In this document: positions 2,320 through 13,793 of the stretch, piece after piece
How positions within the stretch are numbered: the first letter of the stretch is position 1
Layout: the number at the start of each line of letters is the position of its first letter
Assembly: GCA_012510865.1 (NCBI GenBank)
Contig: JAAZHF010000224.1
Coordinates: 1-13,793, forward strand
Origin: Gammaproteobacteria bacterium
GTDB lineage: Bacteria > Pseudomonadota > Gammaproteobacteria > Xanthomonadales > Xanthomonadaceae
DNA length: 13,793 bases
Direction of reading: 5' to 3'
Notes under the pieces: model-generated
Seen by the model: only the letters and a program-made list of their open reading frames with translations
Told to the model about the DNA's origin: nothing
Databases searched by the model: none
Translations under genes and position numbers: made by a program

Positions 2320-3534
2320 TTATCGGGAGGCTTCCGACCCCGTATCCGCGTCTTCCGAGGCCTCGACCACCGGCACCTCGTGGTCGTACAGGTGCACCAT
2401 CGCCAAGGTCTTGTGCCCGCTGGCCCGCTGCTTCTCGTCGCCGGTGCCGCGCGTGTCGGTGATGCCGCGATGCTTCAGCCCGTGGAGCCCGAACCGGTCT
2501 TCCTGCCTCAGTACGCCGTCCGCCACGGCCGCGCGCATCATCTTGCCCCAGGCGGTGTTGAAGCCGGCGCGCGTGAGCTGCGTCCCGTCCTCGCTGACGA
2601 AGAGCGGTCGCCGGGTGGCCCGGATGGGCGTGGCCAGGCCCCGCCGGTGCCAGACGGCCTTCCGGTACGCCTGCAGCGCGGCGATCGCCTCGCGCGTCCT
2701 GGCACCGAGCCGCACCTGGTTGTCCCGGCTGCCCTTGCGTCGATTGGTCAGCAGCAGCTCGCCGTCGGCGTCGACCAGACCGTCGTGGAGCGTCAGGACC
2801 TCGATCCCGCGCAGCCGCGCCTGATACGCGAGTTCCATGGCGGCCCACAGGTACGGAGGCAGGCTGCCTTTCTCCCTGGGACCGAGCGCGCCTCGCGCCC
2901 GCGCGAAGGCTTGCACGGCGCGAAAGGTGGTGCGCTCTGGCATGCGGTGGTCTGCAACCTCGGGGACAGCCTTGACGCCCTTCGCCGGGTTCGTTCGGCA
3001 GGCGCCGTGCTCGATGCCCCAGCCGAAGGCACGGCGCAGGTATCGCAGCCAGTGGTTGGCCTTTGTGGGGTAGCCGGGCACCGCCGCGCGGCCGGCCTTG
3101 GCCGGCATGCCGTCGGCGATCTGGTCGATCAGGGCGCGGATGAATGGCGGCGCGATGCGGTCGACCAGGATGTCGCCCAGCGGACCGGACCGGGTTGGGT
3201 AGACCTTGATTGCCGCGGCGTAGGCGGCGTAGTGCGTGCGGGTGCTGTCGGCCAGGGTCAGGAAGTCACGGTGCTGGTGGAAGGCGTCAAGCACGTGGGC
3301 CACGCTGCCGCGCCGCGCGCCGCCGGCTCGCGCCTCCATGATGGCGTAGAGGTCGGACAGTTTGGCGGTGCGGTCGGCCACGCTGGTGGCGCGCGTGCCA
3401 CCCCCTGGCTTCGGCTCACGCACGTACCAGCGGCCATTGCCAGAGCGGTCCCACAGCATCCCTGCGGGCAGCTTCGACTGGTCGATGTGACCGGGGATGG
3501 TGGGGTCGAACTTGCGCGGGCGCCCGCGGCCCAT
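2320..3534 (-). CDS. int: Tyrosine-type site-specific integrase
   Basis: A 404-residue phage integrase that recombines the element with the tRNA-Arg(TCT) attachment site. An N-terminal DNA-binding region precedes a catalytic domain with Arg242 (in ARLRGIEVLTL), His351 and Lys354 (HGLKHRG), His374 (ASGHKTLA) and nucleophile Tyr383 (VHLYDHEV). The usual second Arg of HxxR is Lys, as in a known subgroup of phage integrases. The ATG at 3534 is chosen because AGGAGG stands 7 nt upstream; further upstream starts would overlap the previous gene. The stop is 94 bp from the attachment site, and the gene follows the excisionase-like gene by 10 bp, so it is probably co-transcribed with it and the methyltransferase. 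Confidence 0.96.
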   Translation of the reverse strand: MGRGRPRKFDPTIPGHIDQSKLPAGMLWDRSGNGRWYVREPKPGGGTRATSVADRTAKLSDLYAIMEARAGGARRGSVAHVLDAFHQHRDFLTLADSTRTHYAAYAAAIKVYPTRSGPLGDILVDRIAPPFIRALIDQIADGMPAKAGRAAVPGYPTKANHWLRYLRRAFGWGIEHGACRTNPAKGVKAVPEVADHRMPERTTFRAVQAFARARGALGPREKGSLPPYLWAAMELAYQARLRGIEVLTLHDGLVDADGELLLTNRRKGSRDNQVRLGARTREAIAALQAYRKAVWHRRGLATPIRATRRPLFVSEDGTQLTRAGFNTAWGKMMRAAVADGVLRQEDRFGLHGLKHRGITDTRGTGDEKQRASGHKTLAMVHLYDHEVPVVEASEDADTGSEASR

Positions 3535-3544
3535 GGCGGTCCTC

Positions 3545-3781
3545 CTAGAGTGCATCGGCCCCGAGCTGGCCGTCATTGGCAGCTGGGTTCCCCAGGCCAA
3601 GGGCGGCGTTCAGGGCCTCGACCGTGCTGATGATGCCCCCCTCGGCATCGTAGGTGTAGTGCAGCCCGATCTTCCGCGCCCATGCCTCCACGGTGGCCCG
3701 CCGGGGAGCGCTGGCGCCGTCCGCCGCGCTGGGGCGGCAGAGACGCTGGAGGTCTTGGAACTGGAGGACCGGTCCGATCAT
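3545..3781 (-). CDS. Small excisionase-like protein preceding integrase
   Basis: A 78-residue protein beginning MIGPVLQFQDLQRLC. The central part (RRATVEAWARKIGLHYTYD, residues 27-45) looks like a recognition helix followed by a wing, after which EGGIISTVEALNAALGL closes the fold. This resembles small winged-helix DNA-binding proteins often encoded directly before phage integrases. Its start overlaps the methyltransferase stop by ATGA, and it ends 10 bp before the integrase ATG with the integrase Shine-Dalgarno just after its stop. Position, size and fold suggest a recombination directionality factor or an integrase regulator; this is inference from context rather than a firm family match. 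Confidence 0.78.
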   Translation of the reverse strand: MIGPVLQFQDLQRLCRPSAADGASAPRRATVEAWARKIGLHYTYDAEGGIISTVEALNAALGLGNPAANDGQLGADAL

Positions 3782-5421
3782 GCCGCGGCCTGGATGTCCC
3801 GCACGCAGTCCAGATTGGCGCGCGCCAGCGCGGCCAGCGGGTGCGGCGGCACGCTGTTGCCCACCATCCGCACTGCCGCGGTGGTGCTGATCGCGCGGCC
3901 GTCGGCGGTGCGGTCGATGATGTAGTCGCGGGGGAAGCCCTGAGCGATGAACAGCTCGCGCGGCTTCAGCATCCTCAGGCGGATATCGGTGATGACGTGG
4001 GGCACGCCGTCCAGGTGCACCGTCACCAGCGCCATGCGGTCGCGGGTGGTTACAGTGTCCAGAGGCTCGCGCAGGGCGAGCGCGTCGCCGTTGCCGTAGT
4101 AGTTGACCAGGAAGGCGGCGACGCGCAGGGCGCCGGCCTCGGCCTCTGGCGACAGGGCCGCCATGTCGGCCGACACCAGGCGCTGGATGCTGCCCTTCGC
4201 GCAGATGGTCGGCGCGGGCTTGCGCAGGTCGTGGCCGGCGCCGGTGTAGTACCCGCTGCAGGCCTGCTCGAGGAAGGCGGCGGCCATGGCGTGCTTCACG
4301 CCACCGGCGACGACGACGCCCAGCGGCTGCTTGATGTCGAGCGCCCGCGGTGCCTGTCGCTTGCGCTCGCCGTAGCCGGTCTGCACCAACGTGGGCGCCA
4401 CCACCGCGAAGTGTCCGCCCTTCACCCCGGCGCACTGAGTGCGCAGCGGCTCGCTCGCGGACCAGGTGCGGCCGTTGCTCGCATTGGCGAACTCGGTCAG
4501 GAAGAACGGCTCGTCGGCCTCGAGCACATGCTTGACTAGCCCCTTGGCGATCCGCCGCATGGTGGCGTCCGCCAGCGGGCGCGGGCGGTCGAAGATCGAG
4601 CGCCCGAGGTCGGAGAAGTCAATGCACTCGGCCGCCGAGACGTAGGGCTTTGCGCGGGCCGGACCGTGCGTCGGCTCCGGCCAGGCGATCGGCTCGCCAT
4701 CGCGGCGGGCCAGCAGGAACAGGCGCTCCCGGCTGGTGCCCGCGCCGTAGTCAGCGGCCACCAACCGGCGCCACTCCACGGTGTAGCCCAGGGCGCGCAG
4801 CGCGGCCACGAACTGGTCCCAAGTGCGGCCGGCGTGGCGCTTGTCCGGCACCAGCTGCTGGTTCTCCACCGGGACCCGCTCGCCCGGTTCCGGCACGCTG
4901 CCGTCCATCTTCAGCACGCGGCCGGTGGCCTTGCACCGCTTCGCCACCAGCGGACCCCAGGTGAGGATCTGCCAGACGTTCTCCATGCTGATGATCCGCG
5001 GCGCGGTGCGCGTGCCGTGGAGGGCGTCGGCGCGGAGCAGCTGGCCCACCCACTTGAGCACCACCCAGGACAGCGAGCGGATCTTGCCGTTGCGCGGCTG
5101 GCCGCCCTTGGCCTGGCTGAAGTGGGTGCAGTCCGGCGAGGCATGGAACCAGCCCACCGGGCGGCCGGCGACGTCGACGCGCGGATCGGCGTGCCAGATG
5201 TCCTCGCGGTGGTGCGAGGTGAGTGGGTGGTTGGCGGCGTGCATGCCGATCGCCCACTCGTCGTGGTTGTAGGCCAGCTCGGGGTCCTTGCCGAGCGCCT
5301 GCTTCAGGCCCTCGCTCGCGCCGCCGCCCCCGGCGAACAGGTCGACCACGATCTCGCCCGGCCGCAGCGCGGAGCGCTGGGGGAGCGGGAAGTTGAAGCC
5401 TCGAGGGGTGCCGTCTGCCAT
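3778..5421 (-). CDS. DNA (cytosine-5-)-methyltransferase, Dcm type
   Basis: A full-length 547-residue C5 methyltransferase. Motif I is VVDLFAGGGGASEGL (residues 25-39), which binds S-adenosylmethionine. Motif IV is SPDCTHFS, with catalytic Cys98 (Asp replaces the more common second Pro). Motif VI is ENVW (147-150), motif VIII is around GTSRERLFLLARR (228-240), and motifs IX/X are RELFIAQGFPRDY (488-500) and GNSVPPHPLAAL (521-532). The 250-odd residues between VIII and IX hold target recognition, with recurring PLRTQ, PAPTI and PLDTVTTRD segments. No restriction endonuclease is adjacent, so this is an orphan enzyme, probably protecting element DNA or affecting regulation. The start lacks a strong Shine-Dalgarno but no other early ATG exists. 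It overlaps the next gene by ATGA. Target sequence is unknown. Confidence 0.95.
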   Translation of the reverse strand: MADGTPRGFNFPLPQRSALRPGEIVVDLFAGGGGASEGLKQALGKDPELAYNHDEWAIGMHAANHPLTSHHREDIWHADPRVDVAGRPVGWFHASPDCTHFSQAKGGQPRNGKIRSLSWVVLKWVGQLLRADALHGTRTAPRIISMENVWQILTWGPLVAKRCKATGRVLKMDGSVPEPGERVPVENQQLVPDKRHAGRTWDQFVAALRALGYTVEWRRLVAADYGAGTSRERLFLLARRDGEPIAWPEPTHGPARAKPYVSAAECIDFSDLGRSIFDRPRPLADATMRRIAKGLVKHVLEADEPFFLTEFANASNGRTWSASEPLRTQCAGVKGGHFAVVAPTLVQTGYGERKRQAPRALDIKQPLGVVVAGGVKHAMAAAFLEQACSGYYTGAGHDLRKPAPTICAKGSIQRLVSADMAALSPEAEAGALRVAAFLVNYYGNGDALALREPLDTVTTRDRMALVTVHLDGVPHVITDIRLRMLKPRELFIAQGFPRDYIIDRTADGRAISTTAAVRMVGNSVPPHPLAALARANLDCVRDIQAAA

Positions 5422-5451
5422 CTTTTTATCTGCCGTTTTTGGAGCTTTGCG

Positions 5452-5475
5452 CCGCTATTACCGCTATACCGCTCG
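5452..5475 (-). promoter_or_regulatory. Tandem CCGCTAT-type repeats in the methyltransferase upstream region
   Basis: Three head-to-tail words CCGCTAT, CCGCTAT and CCGCTCG start at 5452, 5461 and 5469, about 31-54 bp upstream of the methyltransferase ATG. On the minus strand they give TATAGC and TAATAG words that could serve as a -10. They may be a promoter overlapped by a short operator array; no clear -35 is seen. Confidence 0.3.
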
Positions 5476-5527
5476 AAAATGGGATCTACTTAGGGGTAGA
5501 CCGCAGTGACCGTTCGTCGGGTGGCCC

Positions 5528-5556
5528 TTGCGGCGTCACTAGTGACGCGATATGAT
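5528..5556 (+). promoter_or_regulatory. Promoter with a palindromic operator in its spacer
   Basis: -35-like TTGCGG (5528-5533) and a near-consensus -10 TATGAT (5551-5556) are 17 bp apart. The spacer contains the perfect 16-bp palindrome GCGTCACTAGTGACGC (5533-5548). A dimeric repressor bound there would block RNA polymerase. The promoter reads into the two small plus-strand genes, whose second product resembles ribbon-helix-helix proteins and could be an autoregulator (inference). Confidence 0.6.
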
Positions 5557-5601
5557 CCTCCCATGCCAGCCATCCCGGCTTGGCGAAAAGAGGAAAAGCC
5601 C

Positions 5602-5772
5602 ATGACCGCTAAGACCGCCGCCGAAGTCATCGCCCTGATCCGCGCCGATAGCCCGGATGCCACTGCTGACCAGATCCGTGACGCGCTGGAAGATGGCGCT
5701 GCACTGGCAGCCCTGGGCATCACGGACGACGACCAGGAAGCGGTCGAAGAAGCGCATGCCTCGCTCGCCTGA
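5602..5772 (+). CDS. Small acidic hypothetical protein
   Basis: A 56-residue acidic protein starting MTAKTAAEVIALIRADSPDA, predicted helical, with no signal peptide or membrane segment. I do not recognise a family. The ATG at 5602 is preferred over the in-frame ATG at 5563 because GAGGAAAAG stands 4-12 nt upstream. It overlaps the next gene by 17 bp in another frame, so the two are translationally linked. The promoter/operator at 5528-5556 is about 46 bp upstream. The pair could be a small regulator plus partner, or a toxin-antitoxin-like pair, but no toxin fold is evident. Confidence 0.65.
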   Translation: MTAKTAAEVIALIRADSPDATADQIRDALEDGAALAALGITDDDQEAVEEAHASLA

Positions 5773-5977
5773 GGCCAAGCCTGAAAAGCGCCCAGCGACG
5801 GGCGCAGCGCGCCAGGCGAAGTACGCCGCTGCCGGCCGGCAGATCGCGTGCGTGATCCGCGACCCTGCCGCGCTGGCAGCGCTTGACCGTCTCGCGCAAA
5901 AGCATGGCGGCGTGACTGCTGCGGTGACTGCTGCGCTTGTCTCATCGTCAAAGTCCTCATCTCGCAAAGCGGTCTAA
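5756..5977 (+). CDS. Small DNA-binding-like protein (ribbon-helix-helix resemblance)
   Basis: A 73-residue basic protein. A disordered, Lys/Arg-rich N-terminus (residues 1-25) is followed by AGRQIACVIRDPAALAALDRL, a strand-helix pattern, and then KHGGVTAAVTAAL, a second helix; this resembles ribbon-helix-helix repressors. The ATG at 5756 lies inside the previous gene. Its stop codon TAA is part of the inverse core box GTCTAAC of the attC-like site at 5972, the standard place for the stop of an integron cassette gene. A perfect 12-bp tandem repeat (5912-5935) encodes the doubled VTAA. It may bind the palindrome upstream of its operon; this is inference. Confidence 0.7.
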   Translation: MPRSPEAKPEKRPATGAARQAKYAAAGRQIACVIRDPAALAALDRLAQKHGGVTAAVTAALVSSSKSSSRKAV

Positions 5978-6031
5978 CAAACCGTTCAAGGGGAAGCCGC
6001 TTCGCGGCTCCCCTTAACGCTCGGGTTAGAT
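5972..6031 (+). other. attC: Integron attC-like recombination site 1
   Basis: A 60-bp imperfect palindrome. Its left box is GTCTAAC (5972-5978) and its right box GTTAGAT (6025-6031), matching RYYYAAC and GTTRRRY. Inner arms CGTTCAAGGGG and CCCCTTAACG pair with one unpaired C in the left arm, then GCCGC/GCGGC closes around TTC. The unpaired left-arm base sets the orientation to plus, as in the aadA-type 60-bp sites it closely resembles. Cassette exchange would cut at G6025/T6026. The stop codon of the 5756-5977 gene overlaps the left box. Confidence 0.85.
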
Positions 6032-6384
6032 GACAGTTGGCCAGTCTCAAGCCACTCGGTAAGGCGATCACGCAGACCCTCCACCTGTACGCGGTTCAGG
6101 TGCATGCGCGTGGTCACCTGCACTTCCTTCGGGATCGGATAAGGCACCCAGCCAACATCCGTCATCGGGTTGATTCCAACGCTCGCGGCATCGCGCGCCA
6201 TCACCATCGCTTCGGTGCCAGAGATCCCGAGCCACACCGCGGAAGTCCCTGGACGCTCAAACGAATCCTCGTAGTCGAGAACAATGCTGCTGAGCTGCAA
6301 ACTGCATTTCTTGCCGTAGTGGTCCTCAAAATCGACCCGTGGCCAGCCGCGTGAGTTCTCGGCATAGGTTCCAAACTTGTCCAT
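5986..6384 (-). CDS. Hypothetical cassette-borne protein, mobile-element type
   Basis: A 132-residue soluble protein starting MDKFGTYAENSRGW. Features are FEDHYGKKCSLQLSS (residues 19-33), AVWLGISGTEAM (49-60) and MHLNRVQVEGLRDRLTEWLETGQL (94-117). This arrangement, ending in an 'HLNR-Q-V...L..W/F..TG-L' helix, is familiar from unnamed phage and cassette proteins; no function is known to me. AGGAG lies 7 nt before the ATG at 6384. The last 13 residues (NPSVKGSREAASP) are encoded by attC site 1 read on the minus strand. Base composition is visibly less GC-rich than the surroundings. It is antiparallel to the canonical cassette direction but co-directional with the phage operon, which probably supplies its transcription. 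Confidence 0.85.
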   Translation of the reverse strand: MDKFGTYAENSRGWPRVDFEDHYGKKCSLQLSSIVLDYEDSFERPGTSAVWLGISGTEAMVMARDAASVGINPMTDVGWVPYPIPKEVQVTTRMHLNRVQVEGLRDRLTEWLETGQLSSNPSVKGSREAASP

Positions 6385-6411
6385 TCGTATCTCCTAGATC
6401 TGTCATCTAAC
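6025..6411. repeat. 12-bp inverted repeat bounding the cassette gene
   Basis: GTTAGATGACAG at 6025-6036 and its exact complement CTGTCATCTAAC at 6400-6411 flank the 132-residue gene. The repeat includes the attC core boxes plus five further bases (GACAG after the 7-bp GTTAGAT box), more symmetry than the 7-bp cores require. Confidence 0.8.
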
Positions 6412-6464
6412 AATTCATTCAAGGCGATGCCGCTTCGCGGCACGCCTTAACTCGTGGGTTAGGC
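6405..6464 (+). other. attC: Integron attC-like recombination site 2
   Basis: A second 60-bp site of the same design. The left box is ATCTAAC (6405-6411), the right box GTTAGGC (6458-6464), the inner arms TTCAAGGCG and CGCCTTAA with an unpaired left-arm C, and the tip GCCGCTTCGCGGC. It has the same length and orientation as site 1. Predicted crossover points are 433 bp apart, a typical cassette size. The TAA stop of the minus-strand gene to its right lies in the right box. Confidence 0.87.
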
Positions 6465-6624
6465 GGCATTCGGTGACTTGTAGGGAGCCCAGTGAGTGGG
6501 GGTCTGCCACTCGTCGAGCTTTTCTTGCGAGACGCTGTTGCGCGTGTAGGACCACCACCCTTCCCACTCTTCAAGCGTGTCGCTCGAGGAAGTCGGGGCC
6601 GCTGATGCTGTTGATCGTGTCCAT
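6459..6624 (-). pseudogene. Frameshifted small gene at the end of the early-left operon
   Basis: An ATG at 6624, 3 bp after the upstream stop and with GAGG before it, begins MDTINSISGPDFLERHA and then meets TGA at 6571-6573. In the next frame the text continues without a break as EEWEGWWSYTRNSVSQEKLD to PYKSPNAA, ending at the TAA within attC site 2. Removing one T at 6573/6574 restores a single 54-residue protein. The sense of both halves and the exact junction argue for a one-base insertion (mutation or sequencing error). Intact, it would be a small Trp-rich phage protein of unknown function. Confidence 0.7.
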
Positions 6625-6627
6625 GGG

Positions 6628-7215
6628 TCAGTCCTCGCAGTCGCTGGGGTGGTGGAAAATCCGGGTGACGCCAAGCCGCTCGATCCGGCCACCACGTCGC
6701 TCGAACTCGGCGATGTCGGCGGCAATGCGGGCGCTGGCGGCGCGGCGCGGGTCGAAGCCGTGGTCGACGGTGGCCAGCGCCGCGGGGAAGTTGGTGTCCA
6801 CGCGGCGGAGTGGGGGGGCGCGCTTCGCCTTCGCCAGCCCGCTGATGGCCTTGGCGACCTCGGCAGCCGGCCGCGGCGGAGCCGGCGCCTTCCGCGGCGC
6901 GCGGGTGCGCGCGGGGGCCGCGGGCTTGCGGACTGCCTGGGCGCGCATCGGCTTGGCAGGGGCCGCGGGCTTGCGGCGGGCCGGCTTGGGCATGCCGATC
7001 GGCCAGCAGAAGTGCACGGAGCCCTTGCCGGCGCCGACGCGCATGAGCTTGCCGGCCCCTGCCAGCGTGCCCAGGGTCGCGGAGACCAGGTTGACGCAGC
7101 CGCCCGGCTCGACCGCGTCGCGGATCTCGCGGGCGGTGAAAGCCTGGTTGGAGTGGCGTGCGAGGAACTCGCGGATCGCCTGGGTGCGGCCGGTGTGATA
7201 GGAGCGGCGGGACAT
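6628..7215 (-). CDS. Winged-helix-like protein with Ala/Pro/Lys-rich linker
   Basis: A 195-residue protein. Residues 1-73 (MSRRSYHTGRTQAIREFL, then FTAREIRDAVEPGG, VSATLGTLAGAGKLMRVGAGKGSVHF) look like a winged helix-turn-helix. Residues about 77-125 form a basic Ala/Pro/Lys/Arg linker, partly built from a repeated DNA word (near 6917 and 6960). The C-terminal segment has FERRGGRIERLGVTRIFHHP. The start at 7215 shares one base with the previous stop (TGATG), with GGAGG 9 nt upstream. Probably a phage DNA-binding or regulatory protein; no specific function is recognised. Confidence 0.85.
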   Translation of the reverse strand: MSRRSYHTGRTQAIREFLARHSNQAFTAREIRDAVEPGGCVNLVSATLGTLAGAGKLMRVGAGKGSVHFCWPIGMPKPARRKPAAPAKPMRAQAVRKPAAPARTRAPRKAPAPPRPAAEVAKAISGLAKAKRAPPLRRVDTNFPAALATVDHGFDPRRAASARIAADIAEFERRGGRIERLGVTRIFHHPSDCED

Positions 7216-7829
7216 CAGTCGCAGCCTCCGCCCACTTCGCCCGGGCGGCCGGGCTTGGTGAAGTCCTGCCAGTGCACCCAGCCGCGCTCGGGGCAGTGGA
7301 ATCCCCACTCGCGCACGGTGGGGCCGAAGAGGAACAGGGTGACGCAGGGGATGCGCGTGGGCGGCCGCTGCCCGCCGGGGTGCGTGGCAACGGACGGCGG
7401 CAGGGTCGGGAGCTCCACCCGGTGCGTGTGCCGCGTCGGGAGGAAGCGCAGGCTGCCGGCCTCCCACGCCCGGCGGCGGTGGATGCCGCCGTCGGCGATG
7501 GTGTGCTCGATGTAGGCGCCGTCCAGGATCAGGCTCACGGCCCAGCTGGGGTGGTCGTGGAGCGCGCGGTCGTCGTCGTCGCGCAGGAACACGTGCACGT
7601 AGAGGTTCGGCAGGTAGCGCGCCACGCGCGCCTTGGCGCGCCGCCAGAGCGTCGGCTGGGCCTCGGCCTGCTCGCGCCAGCGGCGCCACGGCGTGACGTA
7701 CCAGCGCAGCAGGTAGGGGCCGCCCTCGGCCTCTTCGCCGATGATGAAATCCGGCCAGCGGGCGGCGATGTAGCGCGCGCGCGCCCAGTCCAGGAGGCGC
7801 ACGGCGAGGCCGGGGACGCGCACGGCCAT
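7215..7829 (-). CDS. Cupin-fold phage protein
   Basis: A 204-residue protein. After a basic, Trp/Arg-rich N-terminus (1-70), a beta-rich domain carries cupin-like metal ligands: His91 and His93 (RALHDHPSW), Glu108 (YIEHT) and His134/His136 (PTRHTHRVEL). WGFHCPERGWVHWQDF closes the protein. Proteins of this type occur in several phages of Burkholderia and xanthomonads as cupin proteins of unknown substrate. The start overlaps the preceding stop (TGATG) and has GAGGG 7 nt upstream. It is an interior gene of the early-left operon. Enzymatic activity (dioxygenase, isomerase or none) cannot be told from sequence. Confidence 0.88.
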   Translation of the reverse strand: MAVRVPGLAVRLLDWARARYIAARWPDFIIGEEAEGGPYLLRWYVTPWRRWREQAEAQPTLWRRAKARVARYLPNLYVHVFLRDDDDRALHDHPSWAVSLILDGAYIEHTIADGGIHRRRAWEAGSLRFLPTRHTHRVELPTLPPSVATHPGGQRPPTRIPCVTLFLFGPTVREWGFHCPERGWVHWQDFTKPGRPGEVGGGCD

Positions 7830-8098
7830 CAGCCAGCCCTCGCCCGCGTCCGGGGCTGCTGCAGCGACGCCAGCGCCTCGCGTCCCTTGTCGGTGAGCTC
7901 GGCGGCGCTGCCGTACGGAGGAGTGAGCCTGACCAGCCAGGCGGTGTGCATCGCGCGGACGGTGCGCATGGTCACGCGGACCTCGTCGCACTGCGGCGCG
8001 CCTGCGGGCCGGTAGCCGCCGCTGCAGCGGGTGAGCTCGCCGGTGGTGCTGGCACCGAATGCGCGCAGGGCGTCGGCGACTTTCGGGGTGATGTGCAT
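7829..8098 (-). CDS. Small hypothetical protein, winged-helix-like C-terminus
   Basis: An 89-residue protein starting MHITPKVADALRAFGASTTG. VADALRAFGASTTGELTRC and the VRAMHTAWLVRL to AAELTDKGREALASL segments have the helix-helix-wing pattern of small MarR-like winged helices, seen here only as a resemblance. Two Cys (25 and 37) are present. AGGAG lies 7 nt upstream of the ATG. It is in the early-left operon, overlapping the cupin gene start. Confidence 0.8.
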   Translation of the reverse strand: MHITPKVADALRAFGASTTGELTRCSGGYRPAGAPQCDEVRVTMRTVRAMHTAWLVRLTPPYGSAAELTDKGREALASLQQPRTRARAG

Positions 8099-8110
8099 GC
8101 GGGAATCTCC

Positions 8111-8130
8111 TGCCCGGGCGTGCCCGGGCG
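8111..8130. repeat. Two tandem TGCCCGGGCG decamers between genes
   Basis: The exact decamer, containing the palindrome GCCCGGGC, is present twice head to tail just upstream of the Shine-Dalgarno of the 89-residue gene. The two copies can pair as an RNA hairpin in the intercistronic spacer, perhaps affecting stability or translation. Confidence 0.6.
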
Positions 8131-8143
8131 CGTTGGTATCGGG

Positions 8144-8440
8144 TCAGGCGGCGGCCGCTGCGGCCTGGGCGCGCTCGGCGGCCAGGCGCAGGGTGGGGAG
8201 CTCGGCGATCGGCACGATGTCGGCCTGCACGCGCCACGCGAGTTCCGCGCGGCGGGCGGTGCGATGCACCTGCGTGGCCACGCCGCAGCGGCTGCACTCC
8301 ACGTGCCACGCGCGCGCCGGCGTGCCGAGCAGCCGCGGGTCGGTGGTGCTGCGGCCGCGGGCCTCGATCAGGTGCGGGACATGCCCGCAGGCGCGGTGCG
8401 GGGCCAGCGGGCGAGAGGGTTGGATGTCGACCAGGATCAT
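8144..8440 (-). CDS. Small zinc-ribbon-like protein
   Basis: A 98-residue protein starting MILVDIQPSRPLAPHRACGH. Cys18/His20 and a CSRC pair (Cys49, Cys52) in AWHVECSRCGVATQ could bind one zinc ion. RAELAWRVQADIVPIAEL and an Ala-rich tail follow. AAGGAG lies 9 nt upstream and the start overlaps the previous gene by ATGA. Such small zinc-ribbon proteins are frequent in phage early regions; the target is unknown. Confidence 0.8.
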   Translation of the reverse strand: MILVDIQPSRPLAPHRACGHVPHLIEARGRSTTDPRLLGTPARAWHVECSRCGVATQVHRTARRAELAWRVQADIVPIAELPTLRLAAERAQAAAAAA

Positions 8441-8640
8441 CGCAGTGACTCCTTGCGGGGATGCTTGCGACGGTCGGGCAGGGCGCCGACCTCGCGGAAC
8501 TTGTCGATGCGGTAGCTGGTGAGTGCGAGCAGCTGTTCGAAGTCGCCGTCCACGCGGGCCAGCCGCGCGTCGACCTCGGCCTGGACGTCGCTGGCGTTGC
8601 GGAGACGGAAGGCGCCCATGGCGCGGGCGAAGGCGCTCAC
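8437..8640 (-). CDS. Small charged hypothetical protein, GTG start
   Basis: A 67-residue, mainly helical charged protein (MSAFARAMGAFRLRNASDVQ, then AEVDARLARVDGDFEQLLAL), with a basic tail RRKHPRKESLR. The GTG at 8640 is chosen because it gives a GTGA overlap with the preceding stop, the same arrangement as neighbouring genes. It may form a coiled coil. Family not recognised. Confidence 0.7.
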   Translation of the reverse strand: MSAFARAMGAFRLRNASDVQAEVDARLARVDGDFEQLLALTSYRIDKFREVGALPDRRKHPRKESLR

Positions 8641-8906
8641 AGCACGCCCGCCAGACGCAGGCCGATCACCACCGGGCCGGCGACGTACACGAAGGCGAGG
8701 GCGCGGAACTCGGTGAGCCACGGGAACGCCTTGGCCTCCGGATCCAGCTGGTGCTCGTGGCCCGGCAGCGGCGGGCGCTCGGCGGGCCCGGCCCACGGCC
8801 GCCACTCGGGCACGCCGACCAGGTCCGCGTTACCGGTGAGCACGCCCGTGGCGTCGGTCGAGCGCTCGGGGGTTGCGGGCGTGTCGGGCAGCGGGCGCGC
8901 GTTCAT
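8637..8906 (-). CDS. Small membrane protein
   Basis: An 89-residue protein with a Pro-rich polar N-terminal region (1-66) and a single C-terminal hydrophobic segment, ALAFVYVAGPVVIGLRLAG (about 69-87). It is likely a tail-anchored inner-membrane protein. AGGAAGG precedes the ATG, which overlaps the previous stop by ATGA. Function unknown; small membrane proteins of early phage operons often act on the host envelope or in exclusion, but nothing here proves that. Confidence 0.78.
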   Translation of the reverse strand: MNARPLPDTPATPERSTDATGVLTGNADLVGVPEWRPWAGPAERPPLPGHEHQLDPEAKAFPWLTEFRALAFVYVAGPVVIGLRLAGVL

Positions 8907-9286
8907 GCGGAACCTTCCTGCGAGCGGGTGGCGACACAGAGCACGCGGTCTGGCAGGCGCGAGTACACGCGGAAGCCCGCATGGAAGAGTTCCGAGACCG
9001 CGTCACGACCGAGCCAACCGGCCCAGGCGAACGCGTCCTCGAGCACAGCTTTCGCGTACGCGCCGCGGTGCACCAGTCGCCGCTTCTGCCCTTCGTCGAG
9101 CTCGCTCCATTCGACGCGGCCACGGCCATCGCACAGATCGCATTCCCGCTCGTGGCCGCAGCAGCTGCATTCGACGTCGCCTTCACCGTCGCACTCAGGG
9201 CAGTCGACAGGCATGTCCGGCGGCCGGCTGGCGATCTGCTCGTCGCGCCAGGCCTCGAAGCTCAGGGGCTTGAAGGAAGCGCTCAC
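8903..9286 (-). CDS. DnaJ-type zinc-finger-like phage protein
   Basis: A 127-residue protein. Residues 29-56 contain CPECDGEGDVECSCC and CDLCDGRG, i.e. Cys29/32, 40/42/43 and 49/52 with the CxxCxGxG pattern of DnaJ zinc domains, so two zinc sites are plausible. The C-terminal half (YAKAVLEDAFAWAGWLGRDA, then VSELFHAGFRVYSRLPDRV) is an unknown alpha/beta unit. The start is GTG at 9286 with a GTGA overlap; the Shine-Dalgarno is weak, suggesting translational coupling. Probably a nucleic-acid or protein-binding early protein. Confidence 0.85.
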   Translation of the reverse strand: MSASFKPLSFEAWRDEQIASRPPDMPVDCPECDGEGDVECSCCGHERECDLCDGRGRVEWSELDEGQKRRLVHRGAYAKAVLEDAFAWAGWLGRDAVSELFHAGFRVYSRLPDRVLCVATRSQEGSA

Positions 9287-9543
9287 TGGGCACCGCCATG
9301 CTTGAGCTTGGCCAGCCGACGCTCCTCGCGCCGGCAGGCCTTGGCGCTGCCACGCCACTCGCGGGCGACGGCAGCCACGGCGGACAGCCCGAAGACTCCC
9401 GCGCGACCGTCGATCCAGTCGTCGAAGATCTGGCGGGCCCGCGCGGTGGCGAGCCGTTCGGTGTTCTCGGCGGCAACCAGTGCGCAGTGCACGTGGTAGG
9501 CGCGCTGCTCCAGCGCCGCCGTCCATCCGGGCGCGGCGCTCAC
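9283..9543 (-). CDS. Small helical hypothetical protein, GTG start
   Basis: An 86-residue protein (MSAAPGWTAALEQRAYHVHC start) that is almost wholly helical, with RQIFDDWIDGRAGVFGL in the middle and a basic C-terminus REWRGSAKACRREERRLAKL. GTG at 9543 has GGAGG 6 nt upstream and overlaps the previous stop by GTGA. Family not recognised. Confidence 0.75.
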   Translation of the reverse strand: MSAAPGWTAALEQRAYHVHCALVAAENTERLATARARQIFDDWIDGRAGVFGLSAVAAVAREWRGSAKACRREERRLAKLKHGGAQ

Positions 9544-9761
9544 CGCGGGCCTCCACGCATCTGGCTGCGGCGGGAGACCTGTCCCTTCGCGCCCTCGCGG
9601 GCCGTGGCCTCGCTGCCGGGGAACGCACGGCGGGCCGGGCGCGGGGCCGGGTCGTTGGCGCGGCCGGTGGCGGCCAGCAGCAGCACCAGCAGCGGCAGGA
9701 ACACCAGCCACGCCGCGATGAAGCCCTGCCAGAAGATCGGGTTGGTCAGCGTGTCCAGCAC
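9540..9761 (-). CDS. First gene of the early-left operon: small membrane protein
   Basis: A 73-residue protein with GTG start at 9761, preceded by GAGGAGG about 7 nt upstream. A strong transmembrane helix, FIAAWLVFLPLLVLLLAATG (about 14-33), follows a short N-terminus, and a basic tail (RRAF.., SRRSQMRGGPR) would face the cytoplasm. It is the promoter-proximal gene behind the pL-like promoter at 9894-9923, with a leader of about 125 nt containing two hairpins. Function unknown. Confidence 0.78.
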   Translation of the reverse strand: MLDTLTNPIFWQGFIAAWLVFLPLLVLLLAATGRANDPAPRPARRAFPGSEATAREGAKGQVSRRSQMRGGPR

Positions 9762-9850
9762 TGCGCACCTCCTCGGATTCGAAGAGGGCGCCGGCGGGTC
9801 GTGCTCAGGCCAGGGGACGGGGCCGCGGCTGCCGGAGGGGAGGCCGGCGT

Positions 9851-9888
9851 GGCGACCCGCCGGTCGCCCGCCCCGGGCGTCCGGGGCG
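9851..9888 (-). promoter_or_regulatory. Tandem hairpins at the 5' end of the early-left transcript
   Basis: An 8-bp perfect stem (9869-9876 with 9881-9888, four-base loop) lies next to a 6-bp stem GGCGAC/GTCGCC (9851-9856 with 9863-9868). The first begins at about the expected +1 of pL. No T-run follows, so this is not a terminator. Adjacent leader hairpins could be an antitermination or stability element. Confidence 0.45.
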
Positions 9889-10385: not shown

Positions 10386-10754
10386 TCAGCGGGCGTGCGG
10401 AACGTCTGGCGGGTCGCACCCGTCCTGGACGCAGGCCTCAAGGGTTCGCATCCGCTCGCAGAGGATTGCCACGGACTCGTCGCCCAGCGCGCTGATGCTG
10501 CTGACGTGTTCGGCGTCCAGGTGGCGCTGGATCTCGGGAATCCAGCCGTAGCTGGTCGCGATCCGGTTGATCTCCCGCGTCATCTTCGCGCGGGGCGACA
10601 CGTCGAACGCGGGTAGCGGGTCGTTGGCGGCGAAGCTCTGGTATCGCTTCCACGCATCGGCCTCGTCAGCCGCCTGGGCAGGCTGGATGGGCACCGCCTC
10701 GGAAATAATCTGGCGCAGGCGGGACACCCTCGCCTGAAGCTCACGATCCCGCAT
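10386..10754 (-). CDS. Hypothetical protein co-transcribed with the repressor
   Basis: A 122-residue soluble protein. An N-terminal helix (RDRELQARVSRLRQIISEAV) may form a coiled coil, followed by a polar middle and SYGWIPEIQRHLDAEHVSSI plus ALGDESVAILCERMRTLEAC (about 68-107). AAGGGGGAG lies just before the ATG. It starts 17 bp after the repressor stop, so it sits where lambda has rexA. I do not recognise the family. Its position suggests expression in the lysogen. Confidence 0.85.
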   Translation of the reverse strand: MRDRELQARVSRLRQIISEAVPIQPAQAADEADAWKRYQSFAANDPLPAFDVSPRAKMTREINRIATSYGWIPEIQRHLDAEHVSSISALGDESVAILCERMRTLEACVQDGCDPPDVPHAR

Positions 10755-10771
10755 GACTCCCCCTTGGCGGC

Positions 10772-11224
10772 TCAGGCCGCAGCAGCAAGGACGAAGCGCA
10801 GCACCTTCGCCCGAGGCAGACCCTCCTCAAGCAGCTCGAAGGCCACCTTCGCGATCTCGGCGAGCTTGGGGGGTGGCAGCGTCTTGCCTTGCTTGCCGAG
10901 TTCGGCGAGGGCGTCCGTTGCCAGCTGGAAGGCGAGGGTGAGGGTGTCGGAGCTCAGATCTTGAGACGGGTAGGCCGGGCGGCCTTCGTTCAGTCTGGTC
11001 GCTGGTGCGCGCTCGCCCAGCAGCAGTTCCCTGGCGTCCATCTCCACGGCGTCGGCGATGTTCATCAGCATGGTCGCCTTCACGTGGTCCGGCGAGATCT
11101 TGTCGCTGACCCAGTTGCTGATCGTGGCTTCGGACGTCCGTGCGCGCCGGGCGACTTCCGCGGCGTGGACGTTCAACTCGGCCATGCGGCCGGCGAGGCG
11201 GGAACCGATGGTTTCGGAGGGCAT
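10772..11224 (-). CDS. Phage repressor, HTH-XRE type without protease domain
   Basis: A 150-residue CI-type repressor. Residues 7-70 are an XRE helix-turn-helix (RLAGRMAELNVHAAEVARRA, TSEATISNWVSDKISPDHVK, MLMNIADAVEMDARELLLG), with TSEATISNW as recognition helix. The C-terminal helical part (95-148) probably dimerises. No Ser/Lys S24 autoprotease is present, so RecA-stimulated self-cleavage is unlikely. No Shine-Dalgarno precedes the ATG at 11224; a TAAGCT -10 candidate (11230-11235) would start the transcript at or next to the A of ATG, a leaderless pRM-like message as in lambda cI. It is transcribed divergently from the Cro-like gene, with CTTAAG operators between. Confidence 0.92.
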   Translation of the reverse strand: MPSETIGSRLAGRMAELNVHAAEVARRARTSEATISNWVSDKISPDHVKATMLMNIADAVEMDARELLLGERAPATRLNEGRPAYPSQDLSSDTLTLAFQLATDALAELGKQGKTLPPPKLAEIAKVAFELLEEGLPRAKVLRFVLAAAA

Positions 11225-11626: not shown

Positions 11627-12208
11627 ATGAAGCGCGATCGTCATTTCCTGCCGCCGCGCCAGTCGGTGGTCTACGGCCACACCCGCCGCATGCTCGACGA
11701 AACGGGCATGAACGCGAACACCTTCGCCATGCACGTGGCCGAGCGCTACCACCAGCTGGTGGCACCCGATGTCCGCGGCGTGCCGCTGCGGCTGGGCGAG
11801 GGTGACGAACTGCTCGCGGCCCTGAAGAACAACGGCCAGATCATCCGCCGCTACATGGACGGCACGGTGAAGGTGCTGCCCGCCGACCTCGAGGACGCCT
11901 GGGTGATAGCGCTGCCGGCAGCGTACCGCAGCGACTGCGAGCGTGACCTGGCACAGCGCCGCGGCACGCTCAGCGTCCGGGTTCCGTCGGGCGACGCCGC
12001 CAAGGCGTTCGGCGTGGCCGCGCTCACGACCGAGTTCGGCGAGCTGCTGCAAGCGCTGGCGCCTGCCTTGGCCGACGGGAAGATCTGCGAGCGCGACCTG
12101 CCACACGCGCGGCGCATCCTGTCGGAGAGCGACGACCTGATCAGCCAGGTGGTGGCGCTGCGCCGGCAGATCACCGCGCTGCTGCCGGAGGGCTCGGTCC
12201 ATGCCTGA
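11627..12208 (+). CDS. Early-right phage protein of unknown function
   Basis: A 193-residue protein in the position of lambda cII. The N-terminal part (MKRDRHFLPPRQSVVYGHTR, then MLDETGMNANTFAMHVAERY) is followed by a conserved-looking block, NNGQIIRRYMDGTVKVLPAD and ALPAAYRSDCERDLAQRRG (about 68-113), and a C-terminal helical region with SDDLISQVVALRRQITALLP. AGGGGGAG precedes the ATG. No classical HTH is evident, although the NNGQIIRRYMDGTVKVLPAD block could be a DNA-binding element. It overlaps the next gene by 8 bp. A regulatory or replication role is plausible but unproven. Confidence 0.88.
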   Translation: MKRDRHFLPPRQSVVYGHTRRMLDETGMNANTFAMHVAERYHQLVAPDVRGVPLRLGEGDELLAALKNNGQIIRRYMDGTVKVLPADLEDAWVIALPAAYRSDCERDLAQRRGTLSVRVPSGDAAKAFGVAALTTEFGELLQALAPALADGKICERDLPHARRILSESDDLISQVVALRRQITALLPEGSVHA

Positions 12209-12887: not shown

Positions 12888-13793
12888 TTGGGCACGAACT
12901 ACGACGACGTGCTCCGCCAGCTCACCGGCTTCGGCCTGCTGCTCGACCGCGGCAGCCTGGAGATCGGCCGCATGGTCCGCTGCAAGGTGGAAGGCGGCGG
13001 CCGCGAGAAGCGGGGCTGGTACATCCTCCACGAGTTCCCGAAGTCCGACGGCACGCTGCTGATCGTCGGCAGCTACGGCATGTGGCGTGGCAACGAGAAC
13101 CACGCGCAGAAGATCGAGCTCGGCAAGGCCGATCCGCTCTCCGCTGACCAGGTGGCCGCGCTCAGGCGCCGACTGGCCGAGGACCGGAAGCGCATCGAGC
13201 GTGAGCGCGCCAGGGAAGCGGCGCGCGCGGCCGAGGTCGCACGCAAGGCCTGGGCCGCGCTGCAGGTCGACGGCGAGTCGCCGTACCTGAAGCAGAAGGG
13301 CGTCGGCGCGCACGGCCTGAAGTTCACCCGCAACGGATCCGCCGTGCTGCAGCTGGTCGACACCGGCGGCAAGGTGCACGGCCTGCAGTTCCTCCGCACA
13401 GCTGCGCAGGCGCGCGAGGCGCGTCGGCCGGCCAAGGAATTCTGGCCGGCCGGGCTGGCCAAGAAGGGCCACTTCCACATGCTGGGGCACGACCCGCACT
13501 GGATCGTACTGGTGGCCGAGGGGTACGCCACCGCGGCGTCGTTGTACGAAGCCACCGGGTTCCCGGTCGCCTGCGCCTTCGACGCCGGCAACCTGCGGCC
13601 CGTGGCCGAGGCCCTGCGCAAGCGCTACAAGCGCGCCCGCATTCTGGTGTGCGCCGACGACGACTGCTTCACCGACGGCAACCCCGGCGTCACCGCCGCC
13701 GGCGCCGCGGCGCTCGCGGTCGACGGGGCCTGGCTGGCGCCGGCCTTCACCGACCAGGCGGCGCGCCGCGAGAAGTTCGAAGCCAACGGGCAC
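12888..13793 (+). CDS. Toprim-domain primase (3' end outside window)
   Basis: The first 302 residues of a phage primase or primase-helicase. Residues 1-80 (NYDDVLRQLTGFGLL, EIGRMVRCKVEGGGREKRGW, LIVGSYGMWRGNENHAQKIE) are the N-terminal domain of this family. A charged helix spans 88-122 and is followed by DYLxxKGVGAHG-like text (SPYLKQKGVGAHGLKFTRNG). The Toprim fold has Glu211 (LVAEGYATAASLY) and Asp257-Asp259 (ILVCADDD), the metal-binding residues. The start is uncertain: an in-frame TAG at 12861 and no early ATG make TTG at 12888 the best choice; the next ATG (residue 29) would remove conserved sequence. It would start replication of the element. Confidence 0.9.
   Translation, partial: MGTNYDDVLRQLTGFGLLLDRGSLEIGRMVRCKVEGGGREKRGWYILHEFPKSDGTLLIVGSYGMWRGNENHAQKIELGKADPLSADQVAALRRRLAEDRKRIERERAREAARAAEVARKAWAALQVDGESPYLKQKGVGAHGLKFTRNGSAVLQLVDTGGKVHGLQFLRTAAQAREARRPAKEFWPAGLAKKGHFHMLGHDPHWIVLVAEGYATAASLYEATGFPVACAFDAGNLRPVAEALRKRYKRARILVCADDDCFTDGNPGVTAAGAAALAVDGAWLAPAFTDQAARREKFEANGH

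Follow-up and report, generated by a model that had tools for sequence, protein, structure and literature searches.

A short attC cluster with an inverted gene in a Xanthomonadaceae prophage and the recurrence of this orientation in predicted viral contigs

Integrons are usually studied as gene-capture devices of bacteria, and the presence of integron recombination (attC) sites inside a prophage raises the question whether such sites mark bacterial cassettes picked up by a phage or belong to the phages themselves. We address this question for contig JAAZHF010000224.1 of assembly GCA_012510865.1, a stretch of 13,793 bp (hereafter the window) that is one whole contig (C5) of a 2.67-Mb metagenome-assembled genome (MAG; 469 contigs) of the Xanthomonadaceae. 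The window carries two attC sites with a small phage-family gene between them that runs against both, and we report that this inverted arrangement recurs in arrays on predicted viral contigs. Our data suggest that the prophage probably bears a short attC cluster without an integron integrase, of an inverted kind specific to phages, which is shuffled by the integron integrase (IntI) of the host.

The two sites, attC1 (5972..6031; R'' box GTCTAAC at 5972-5978, R' box GTTAGAT at 6025-6031) and attC2 (6405..6464; R'' ATCTAAC at 6405-6411, R' GTTAGGC at 6458-6464), are 60 nt each, lie on the + strand in one shared orientation with 433 bp from start to start, and have RYYYAAC and GTTRRRY boxes and a wholly paired inner stem. 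The coordinates, boxes and pairing agree with a preliminary description of the locus, which counted one unpaired base in the left arm where both sites have two, C and A. The covariance model R1, trained on 30 attC sites that all come from outside the window (same-family genomes and the array of the host), accepts both sites (63.7 bits for attC1 and 78.3 bits for attC2); rejection by covariance models, proposed earlier as a refutation of their attC-like character, did not occur. The E-values were 4.2e-16 (attC1) and 2e-20 (attC2) in 55 kb, and 2.0e-14 and 9.6e-19, respectively, across the whole MAG, which is far beyond chance; in the whole-MAG scan, where 150 of 5054 first-look candidates were scored, R1 matched nine distinct places with attC2 as the seventh and attC1 as the eighth. 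With respect to orientation, attC2 reaches 19.9 bits on the - strand versus 78.3 on the +, and attC1 has no R1 match on the - strand at E<=1. The DNA folding z-scores were -6.0 (attC1) and -4.5 (attC2) for the - strand, i.e. the recombinogenic one, and -5.4 and -4.2 for the + strand. The GTTRRRY box by itself is not over-represented in the window (8 seen versus 11 expected), and the evidence therefore lies in the whole site and not in the box. The inner stems (GGGG/CCCC and GGCG/CGCC) differ from those of the 30 model sites (GCCG/CGGC; one or two single changes); despite this the window sites pair fully and retain both unpaired bases of the left arm. An Rfam scan of the window at gathering scores returned three tRNAs and no attC-type match. 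We conclude that both palindromes are true attC sites and share their type with the array of the host.

The segment bounded by the G|TT crossover points in the two R' boxes, 6026..6458 (+ strand, 433 bp), is referred to as cassette B, following the crossover rule as given by established knowledge and the available text of PMC9892861. Its only convincing gene, gene B (5986..6384, - strand; 132 aa), lies on the strand opposite to the attC orientation, with its ATG approximately 21 bp from the attC2 R'' box, a ribosome-binding site (AGGAG; 6385..6404, - strand) between the two, and its last codons entering attC1. Gene B thereby departs from a standard cassette, where the gene is on the attC strand and stops at its own R''. 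It belongs to the phrog_3849 family (5.3e-11), which is also represented in Pseudomonas phages such as MPK9, and homologues with 30-47% identity were found in Pseudomonas phages (8 of 50,697 phage records); in MPK9 the family lies within a replication/recombination gene cluster. Among 297 genomes of the bacterial family, gene B was found in the host's own and in none of the 296 others. An AlphaFold model of gene B (predicted local distance difference test score, pLDDT, 85) gave no match to solved structures at E<=0.001 and two to viral models at the same threshold, one an uncharacterised Pseudomonas phage protein and one nameless. A single-sequence search with gene B gave no confirmed viral locus, and an alignment query was needed. 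In chromosomal genomes the family was found at seven loci, which, judged by their titles, all appear to be Bacillota, and none of them had an R1 match. Among 80 IMG/VR relatives of gene B, R1 matches at E<=1 were present in one, the 39.7-kb viral contig L225, where the family member lies in what appears by eye to be a longer attC-like array (2600-5340); these attC-like sites are weak by R1, with scores that vary with the filter setting, and the best matches are opposite to the genes. A perfect 12-bp inverted repeat, GTTAGATGACAG at 6025-6036 and CTGTCATCTAAC at 6400-6411, also flanks cassette B and exceeds the two R boxes by five bases.

The inverted orientation recurs in viral contigs. A scan of IMG/VR with one attC-like pattern gave 60 stretches, in which R1 had 170 matches at E<=0.01 (strong sites counted on both strands). 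The viral arrays contain small genes running against attC, many with a start and ribosome-binding site approximately 10-30 bp outside R'', and an opposite-strand start with a ribosome-binding site just outside attC was taken as the signature of the inverted type. For covariance-model sites of at least 50 bits (duplicate contigs dropped and the window's own sites outside the counts), 51/83 viral and 11/220 chromosomal sites were inverted-type (Fisher p = 4e-25), and standard-type sites numbered 1/83 and 41/220, respectively. Counted per locus at the same cut-off, inverted-type sites were present in 24 of 35 viral loci and standard-type sites in one of the 35; leaving out one record (L187/L190), 50/74 viral sites were inverted-type. 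Hand-picked subsets gave 48/77 viral and 4/141 chromosomal inverted-type sites, and script-called sites, with exact duplicates removed, 54/142 versus 6/208 (Fisher p = 2.8e-18); at random positions the inverted motif occurred in 5.9% (viral) and 5.4% (chromosomal) of cases. For the 46 viral loci with script-called sites, inverted-type outnumbered standard-type sites in 22 and the reverse applied to four, the remaining 20 having a tie or none. The viral versus chromosomal contrast in start signature is large despite the post hoc definition of the signature. Both attC1 and attC2 in the window bear the inverted-type motif. In the published phage TJE1 the genes and three R1 matches point the same way and were scored as standard, which serves as a check of the orientation call. 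A plain attC query against the isolated phages in INPHARED matched four of 50,697 records, two of which (a phage P1 isolate and a Salmonella record) cover most of the site; at the sensitivity of this query, no inverted arrays of this sequence type were seen among isolated phages.

The surroundings of the arrays are in large part phage-like. Eight of ten proteins neighbouring arrays matched PHROGs (replication initiation O-like, baseplate wedge, phage helicase, DNA polymerase, RecE-like exonuclease and primase), the L183 member of the ten being an antisense frame of the real primase gene. Moreover, six of ten chosen array ORFs (open reading frames) scanned singly had matches, among them two DNA methyltransferases and one dATP/dGTP pyrophosphohydrolase-like protein, and PADLOC found nothing in eight proteins from arrays or the window. 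As a set, 52 ORFs from arrays and the window matched 55 PHROG families, each of these through a single ORF, versus one family for 52 chromosomal cassette ORFs. None of the 17 viral records other than that of L187 carries an intI over the cut-off; five of them have weaker tyrosine-recombinase matches of a kind present in all 14 control genomes. In the L187 record an intI does exceed the cut-off, at 489.5 bits, and the array is standard-oriented. This 48-kb IMG/VR record (L301/L187), with its complete intI and long standard-oriented attC array, could be either an integron-bearing phage or bacterial integron DNA that was wrongly classed as viral.

If the viral arrays lack an integrase of their own, is one available in the host? 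The window has two attC sites 433 bp apart and no intI match on its 13.8 kb, i.e. the composition of a cluster of attC sites lacking integron-integrases (CALIN) and not of a complete integron. The absence of an integron integrase from the window had been described before; the integrase encoded there is an ordinary phage tyrosine recombinase, and the only intI over the NCBIfam cut-off in the MAG lies elsewhere, on C363 (451 bits; it runs off the contig end). The search of the host genome that had been suggested also revealed eight further attC sites of the type present in the window; pattern matching located seven of them on C223, and R1 the eighth on C56. The intI, the C223 array and the C56 site are on three separate contigs. 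The single C56 site (L201, G000:C56; 9981-10040 by R1) is near a contig end and is followed by an ORF (10631-10981) that by eye resembles an IS110-type transposase.

A host that has its own intI together with eight sites of this attC type could have supplied the cassettes itself, in a single transfer into the prophage that used either recombination, homologous or illegitimate, or an IntI reaction at a secondary (attG) site. The foreign composition of the DNA around the sites is as expected from such a capture: the block at 5422..6580 has a GC content of 60.2% versus 72.0% and 75.2% in its flanks, and its open frames have a GC content at third codon positions of 0.68-0.77 versus 0.89-0.94 in four core phage genes. 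The orientation of the unit left of attC1, which is standard, also favours a capture. We nevertheless consider a one-off capture unlikely: the gene of cassette B is of a phage family, not found in the 296 other family genomes, and inverted; the inner arms of the window sites are unlike those of all 30 model sites; and an array occupies this locus in a related phage too. Specifically, the 42-kb viral contig L195 is 75.8% identical in nucleotide sequence, over 0.9 kb, to the beginning of the methyltransferase gene in the window and also matches the window gene at 7748-7210, and five attC sites lie between the two, in the same orientation to the methyltransferase as in the window; all four scored sites are inverted-type. 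L195 carries a phage integrase and a single-strand binding protein, and one of four other array ORFs scanned matched a PHROG. Since the array is at the same locus in L195, a phage-lineage feature is likelier than a one-off capture of bacterial cassettes, and the array looks like the former. The proposal that a temperate phage had captured gene cassettes holds in that attC sites are present in a prophage, and is at odds with a gene that is phage-family and inverted and with the array in a relative. L195 also has a Mom-like DNA modification gene (4777-5220) between the attC array and the C5 methyltransferase, and anti-restriction genes thus cluster at this locus.

The attC sites are, however, not ancestral to all relatives. 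The genome G320, of the same genus as the host, has a related element with 72.6% identity over window positions 6581-9856 and 75.7% over 3544-3782, and a head protease/major head protein gene approximately 12 kb from the matching stretch. Its homology ends at 6581 inside a small phage gene (MDTxNSISGPDFLER...; 6571..6624 in the window, - strand) that has 70 codons in the G320 prophage and 17 here, at the right edge (approximately 6580) of the foreign block. In 23.5 kb of the G320 prophage (L127, L128) there is no R1 match at E<=1, nor is there one in any of the viral loci with related methyltransferases (0/80; best 80 of 92 relatives). Given the homology break, the foreign composition and these attC-free relatives, the sites are an insertion; comparison with related prophages had been named earlier as a way to expose them as an ancestral feature, and the outcome speaks against this. 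A further partial relative is L183, whose phage primase (9136-10080) falls in the same family as that of the window (phrog_2249; 56% protein identity); since the two have this gene in common, the L183 phage and the window prophage are partly related.

Are the viral sites built and exchanged as attC sites? In a set of 32 sites of 60 nt drawn from viral contigs and the window, both partners had changed in 12 of the 21 stem pairs, with 65 covariation cells versus at most 14 when the partners were slid, and 89% of the cells were paired. Neither the unpaired A nor the box triplets that flank the stem base (AAC on one side, GTT on the other) vary among these 32 sites, and the outer box positions pair less well. 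The hairpins might instead be bidirectional terminators or other structures at mRNA ends behind small genes that no longer recombine, as would fit their location at the 3' ends of genes, where some boxes contain a stop codon; terminators require neither the invariant R-box letters next to the cut nor the unpaired A, and one cassette is shared between contigs with ends at R' boxes, which makes this explanation quite unlikely, and slightly more so than a single capture. The shared cassette occurs in L141 and L181, viral contigs that are otherwise dissimilar: their one match (345 bp at 91%) extends from the TAAC of one R' box across attC and one gene to the next GCATAAC box. Likewise, L146 and L179 have a common gene at 76% with the end of the homology at an R' box, and of the 15 homologous stretches that a scan of the array loci listed, four end within 7 nt of an R' box centre, one of them (L187/L190) within a single record. 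These homology ends match, in a few cases, the pattern that recombination of single cassettes would be expected to leave.

Several observations weigh against the view that the arrays are phage-owned and inverted. The start signature was defined post hoc from examples and replaced an indecisive ORF-length test, and sites within one contig are not independent of each other. By ORF length alone, 79 viral sites were 27 same (as attC), 26 opposite and 26 undecided, and both window sites were undecided; 28 viral intervals were 13 same (nine in L187), three opposite and 12 undecided, and 179 intervals from nine chromosomal loci 130 same, seven opposite and 42 undecided. A combined ORF and start score for 92 intervals from 31 viral loci gave 41 opposite, 21 same and 30 undecided; 11 of the 21 are in the L187/L190 record (L187 10/10 same), and opposite calls reached 7/8 in L183, 5/6 in L149, 4/6 in L200, 3/3 in L174, 3/3 in L146 and 1/1 in the window. 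Among the script-called sites, 21/142 viral and 38/208 chromosomal ones were standard-type. The array genes of L183 run against the neighbouring primase. The R'-bounded pairs are few, most other homologous stretches ending away from boxes. IMG/VR contigs are predicted viruses and often fragments, and the 52 ORFs from arrays and the window that were compared with PHROGs had been picked from the opposite strand only. In the window, a standard-type motif with a GTG start is present at attC2 as well, and at attC1 the inverted-type motif leads into the antisense of an ORF starting at 5756. This ORF (5756..5977, + strand, 73 aa; ribbon-helix-helix-like by eye only) has the arrangement of a standard cassette, being on the attC strand with its TAA stop inside the attC1 R'' box, and the window is therefore mixed in orientation with a standard left unit.

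The 5756 ORF has no match to phage proteins and weak matches (E 4e-5 to 1e-3) in 8 of the 296 other family genomes, five of which fall inside frames of 291-1327 aa. A 56-aa ORF (5602..5772, + strand) is possibly the first gene of the same unit. Upstream of these + strand ORFs a perfect 16-bp palindrome, GCGTCACTAGTGACGC (5533..5548), is positioned just before a TATGAT-like box and may be an autoregulatory operator. To the right of cassette B, the tail of a further open frame (...YKSPNAA*; 6459..6590, - strand) has its stop codon in the attC2 R' box and is a remnant, likewise inverted relative to attC2.

That the sites lie inside a prophage, as had been stated, is supported by the other genes on the contig: a phage tyrosine integrase (2320..3600, - strand) adjoining tRNA-His (2021-2097), a phage-type C5 DNA methyltransferase (3778..5421, - strand), a CII-like activator (11627..12208, + strand) and a phage primase with a Toprim domain (12888..13793, + strand) that is truncated by the contig end. 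An ORF at 7215..8309 (- strand) with a phage gene matching phrog_4786 (cysteine dioxygenase) is syntenic with L195 and G320, and structural genes were absent among the scanned proteins of the 13.8-kb contig. With a host genome in so many contigs and a block that differs in composition from both flanks, the assembly could have fused prophage and integron DNA; the array of L195, which comes from another data set, is at the same place between the same genes, and we regard such an artefact as highly improbable.

IntI recombines the folded bottom strand of attC, which fixes the orientation of cassettes for expression from the promoter Pc. We propose that small phage genes are separated by attC sites pointing against them; both L195 and the window have these genes co-directional with the methyltransferase next to them. 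One unit would be cassette B, consisting of gene B and, taken in the integron sense, attC2; the frame to the right of attC2 would be what remains of another. Host IntI would fold and recombine the bottom strand of attC and so insert, delete or exchange units at G|TT. With inverted attC, this recombinogenic strand would also be the coding strand of the gene, and inverted cassettes would be read from phage promoters or operons and lie antisense in a classical integron; they may, moreover, hold the more recombinogenic strand configuration if the genes run with the replication fork. According to the available text of PMC11023631, the leading-strand template is where chromosomal integrons preferentially hold their bottom strands, and excision went up when the V. 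cholerae array was inverted. Our data point to a phage cassette pool that is mobilised in trans by host IntI, the recombination itself being predicted from the sequences. As a more tentative extension, to which we give less than even credence, phages could own an orientation-coded pool, exchangeable among phage operons via host IntI, silent in ordinary integrons and, if co-directional with the fork, with the coding strand as lagging-strand template, which would be the configuration of high exchange.

Phages may, in other words, swap small genes with the host's integron machinery. If so, integrons would also drive the shuffling of phage genes via host IntI, the genes concerned being methyltransferases, nucleotide enzymes, a Mom-like modification gene and possible counter-defence genes, and attC orientation would be a simple rule that could separate phage and bacterial pools. 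Integron finders applied to viral genomes should score attC orientation relative to the genes.

Clusters of attC sites in phages are a class known since 2023 and are not new, and the earlier remark that phages with attC arrays are little described needs to be qualified accordingly. According to the available text of Qi et al. 2023 (PMC9892861), 21 of 10,705 phage genomes contain an integron or components of one, and IntI1 recombined five of the six phage attC sites tested. As in the window, the phage CALINs described there have attC without intI, small genes in between and methyltransferases; unlike gene B, the genes in the CALIN of TJE1 have the same direction as attC, and no description of attC inverted relative to genes was found in that text. 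A literature search covering titles and abstract openings, with few subscription journals or preprints, likewise gave no attC inverted relative to phage genes among the matches listed. Within the literature searched, three features appear to be new: the inverted phage-gene architecture, its recurrence, and the array that a relative carries at this locus. The sedentary chromosomal integrons of the bacterial family (host C223; available text of PMC12444791) have the same attC type, with sites of 60 or approximately 112 nt, for which we use the name Xanthomonadales type of PMC9892861; unlike gene B, their ORFs are on the attC strand in 130/179 intervals, and the host MAG has intI. Finally, for the artificially inverted V. 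cholerae superintegron, the available text of PMC11023631 describes that the orientation of the bottom strand relative to replication affects excision; there the whole array was inverted, while in the window it is the genes that are inverted relative to attC.
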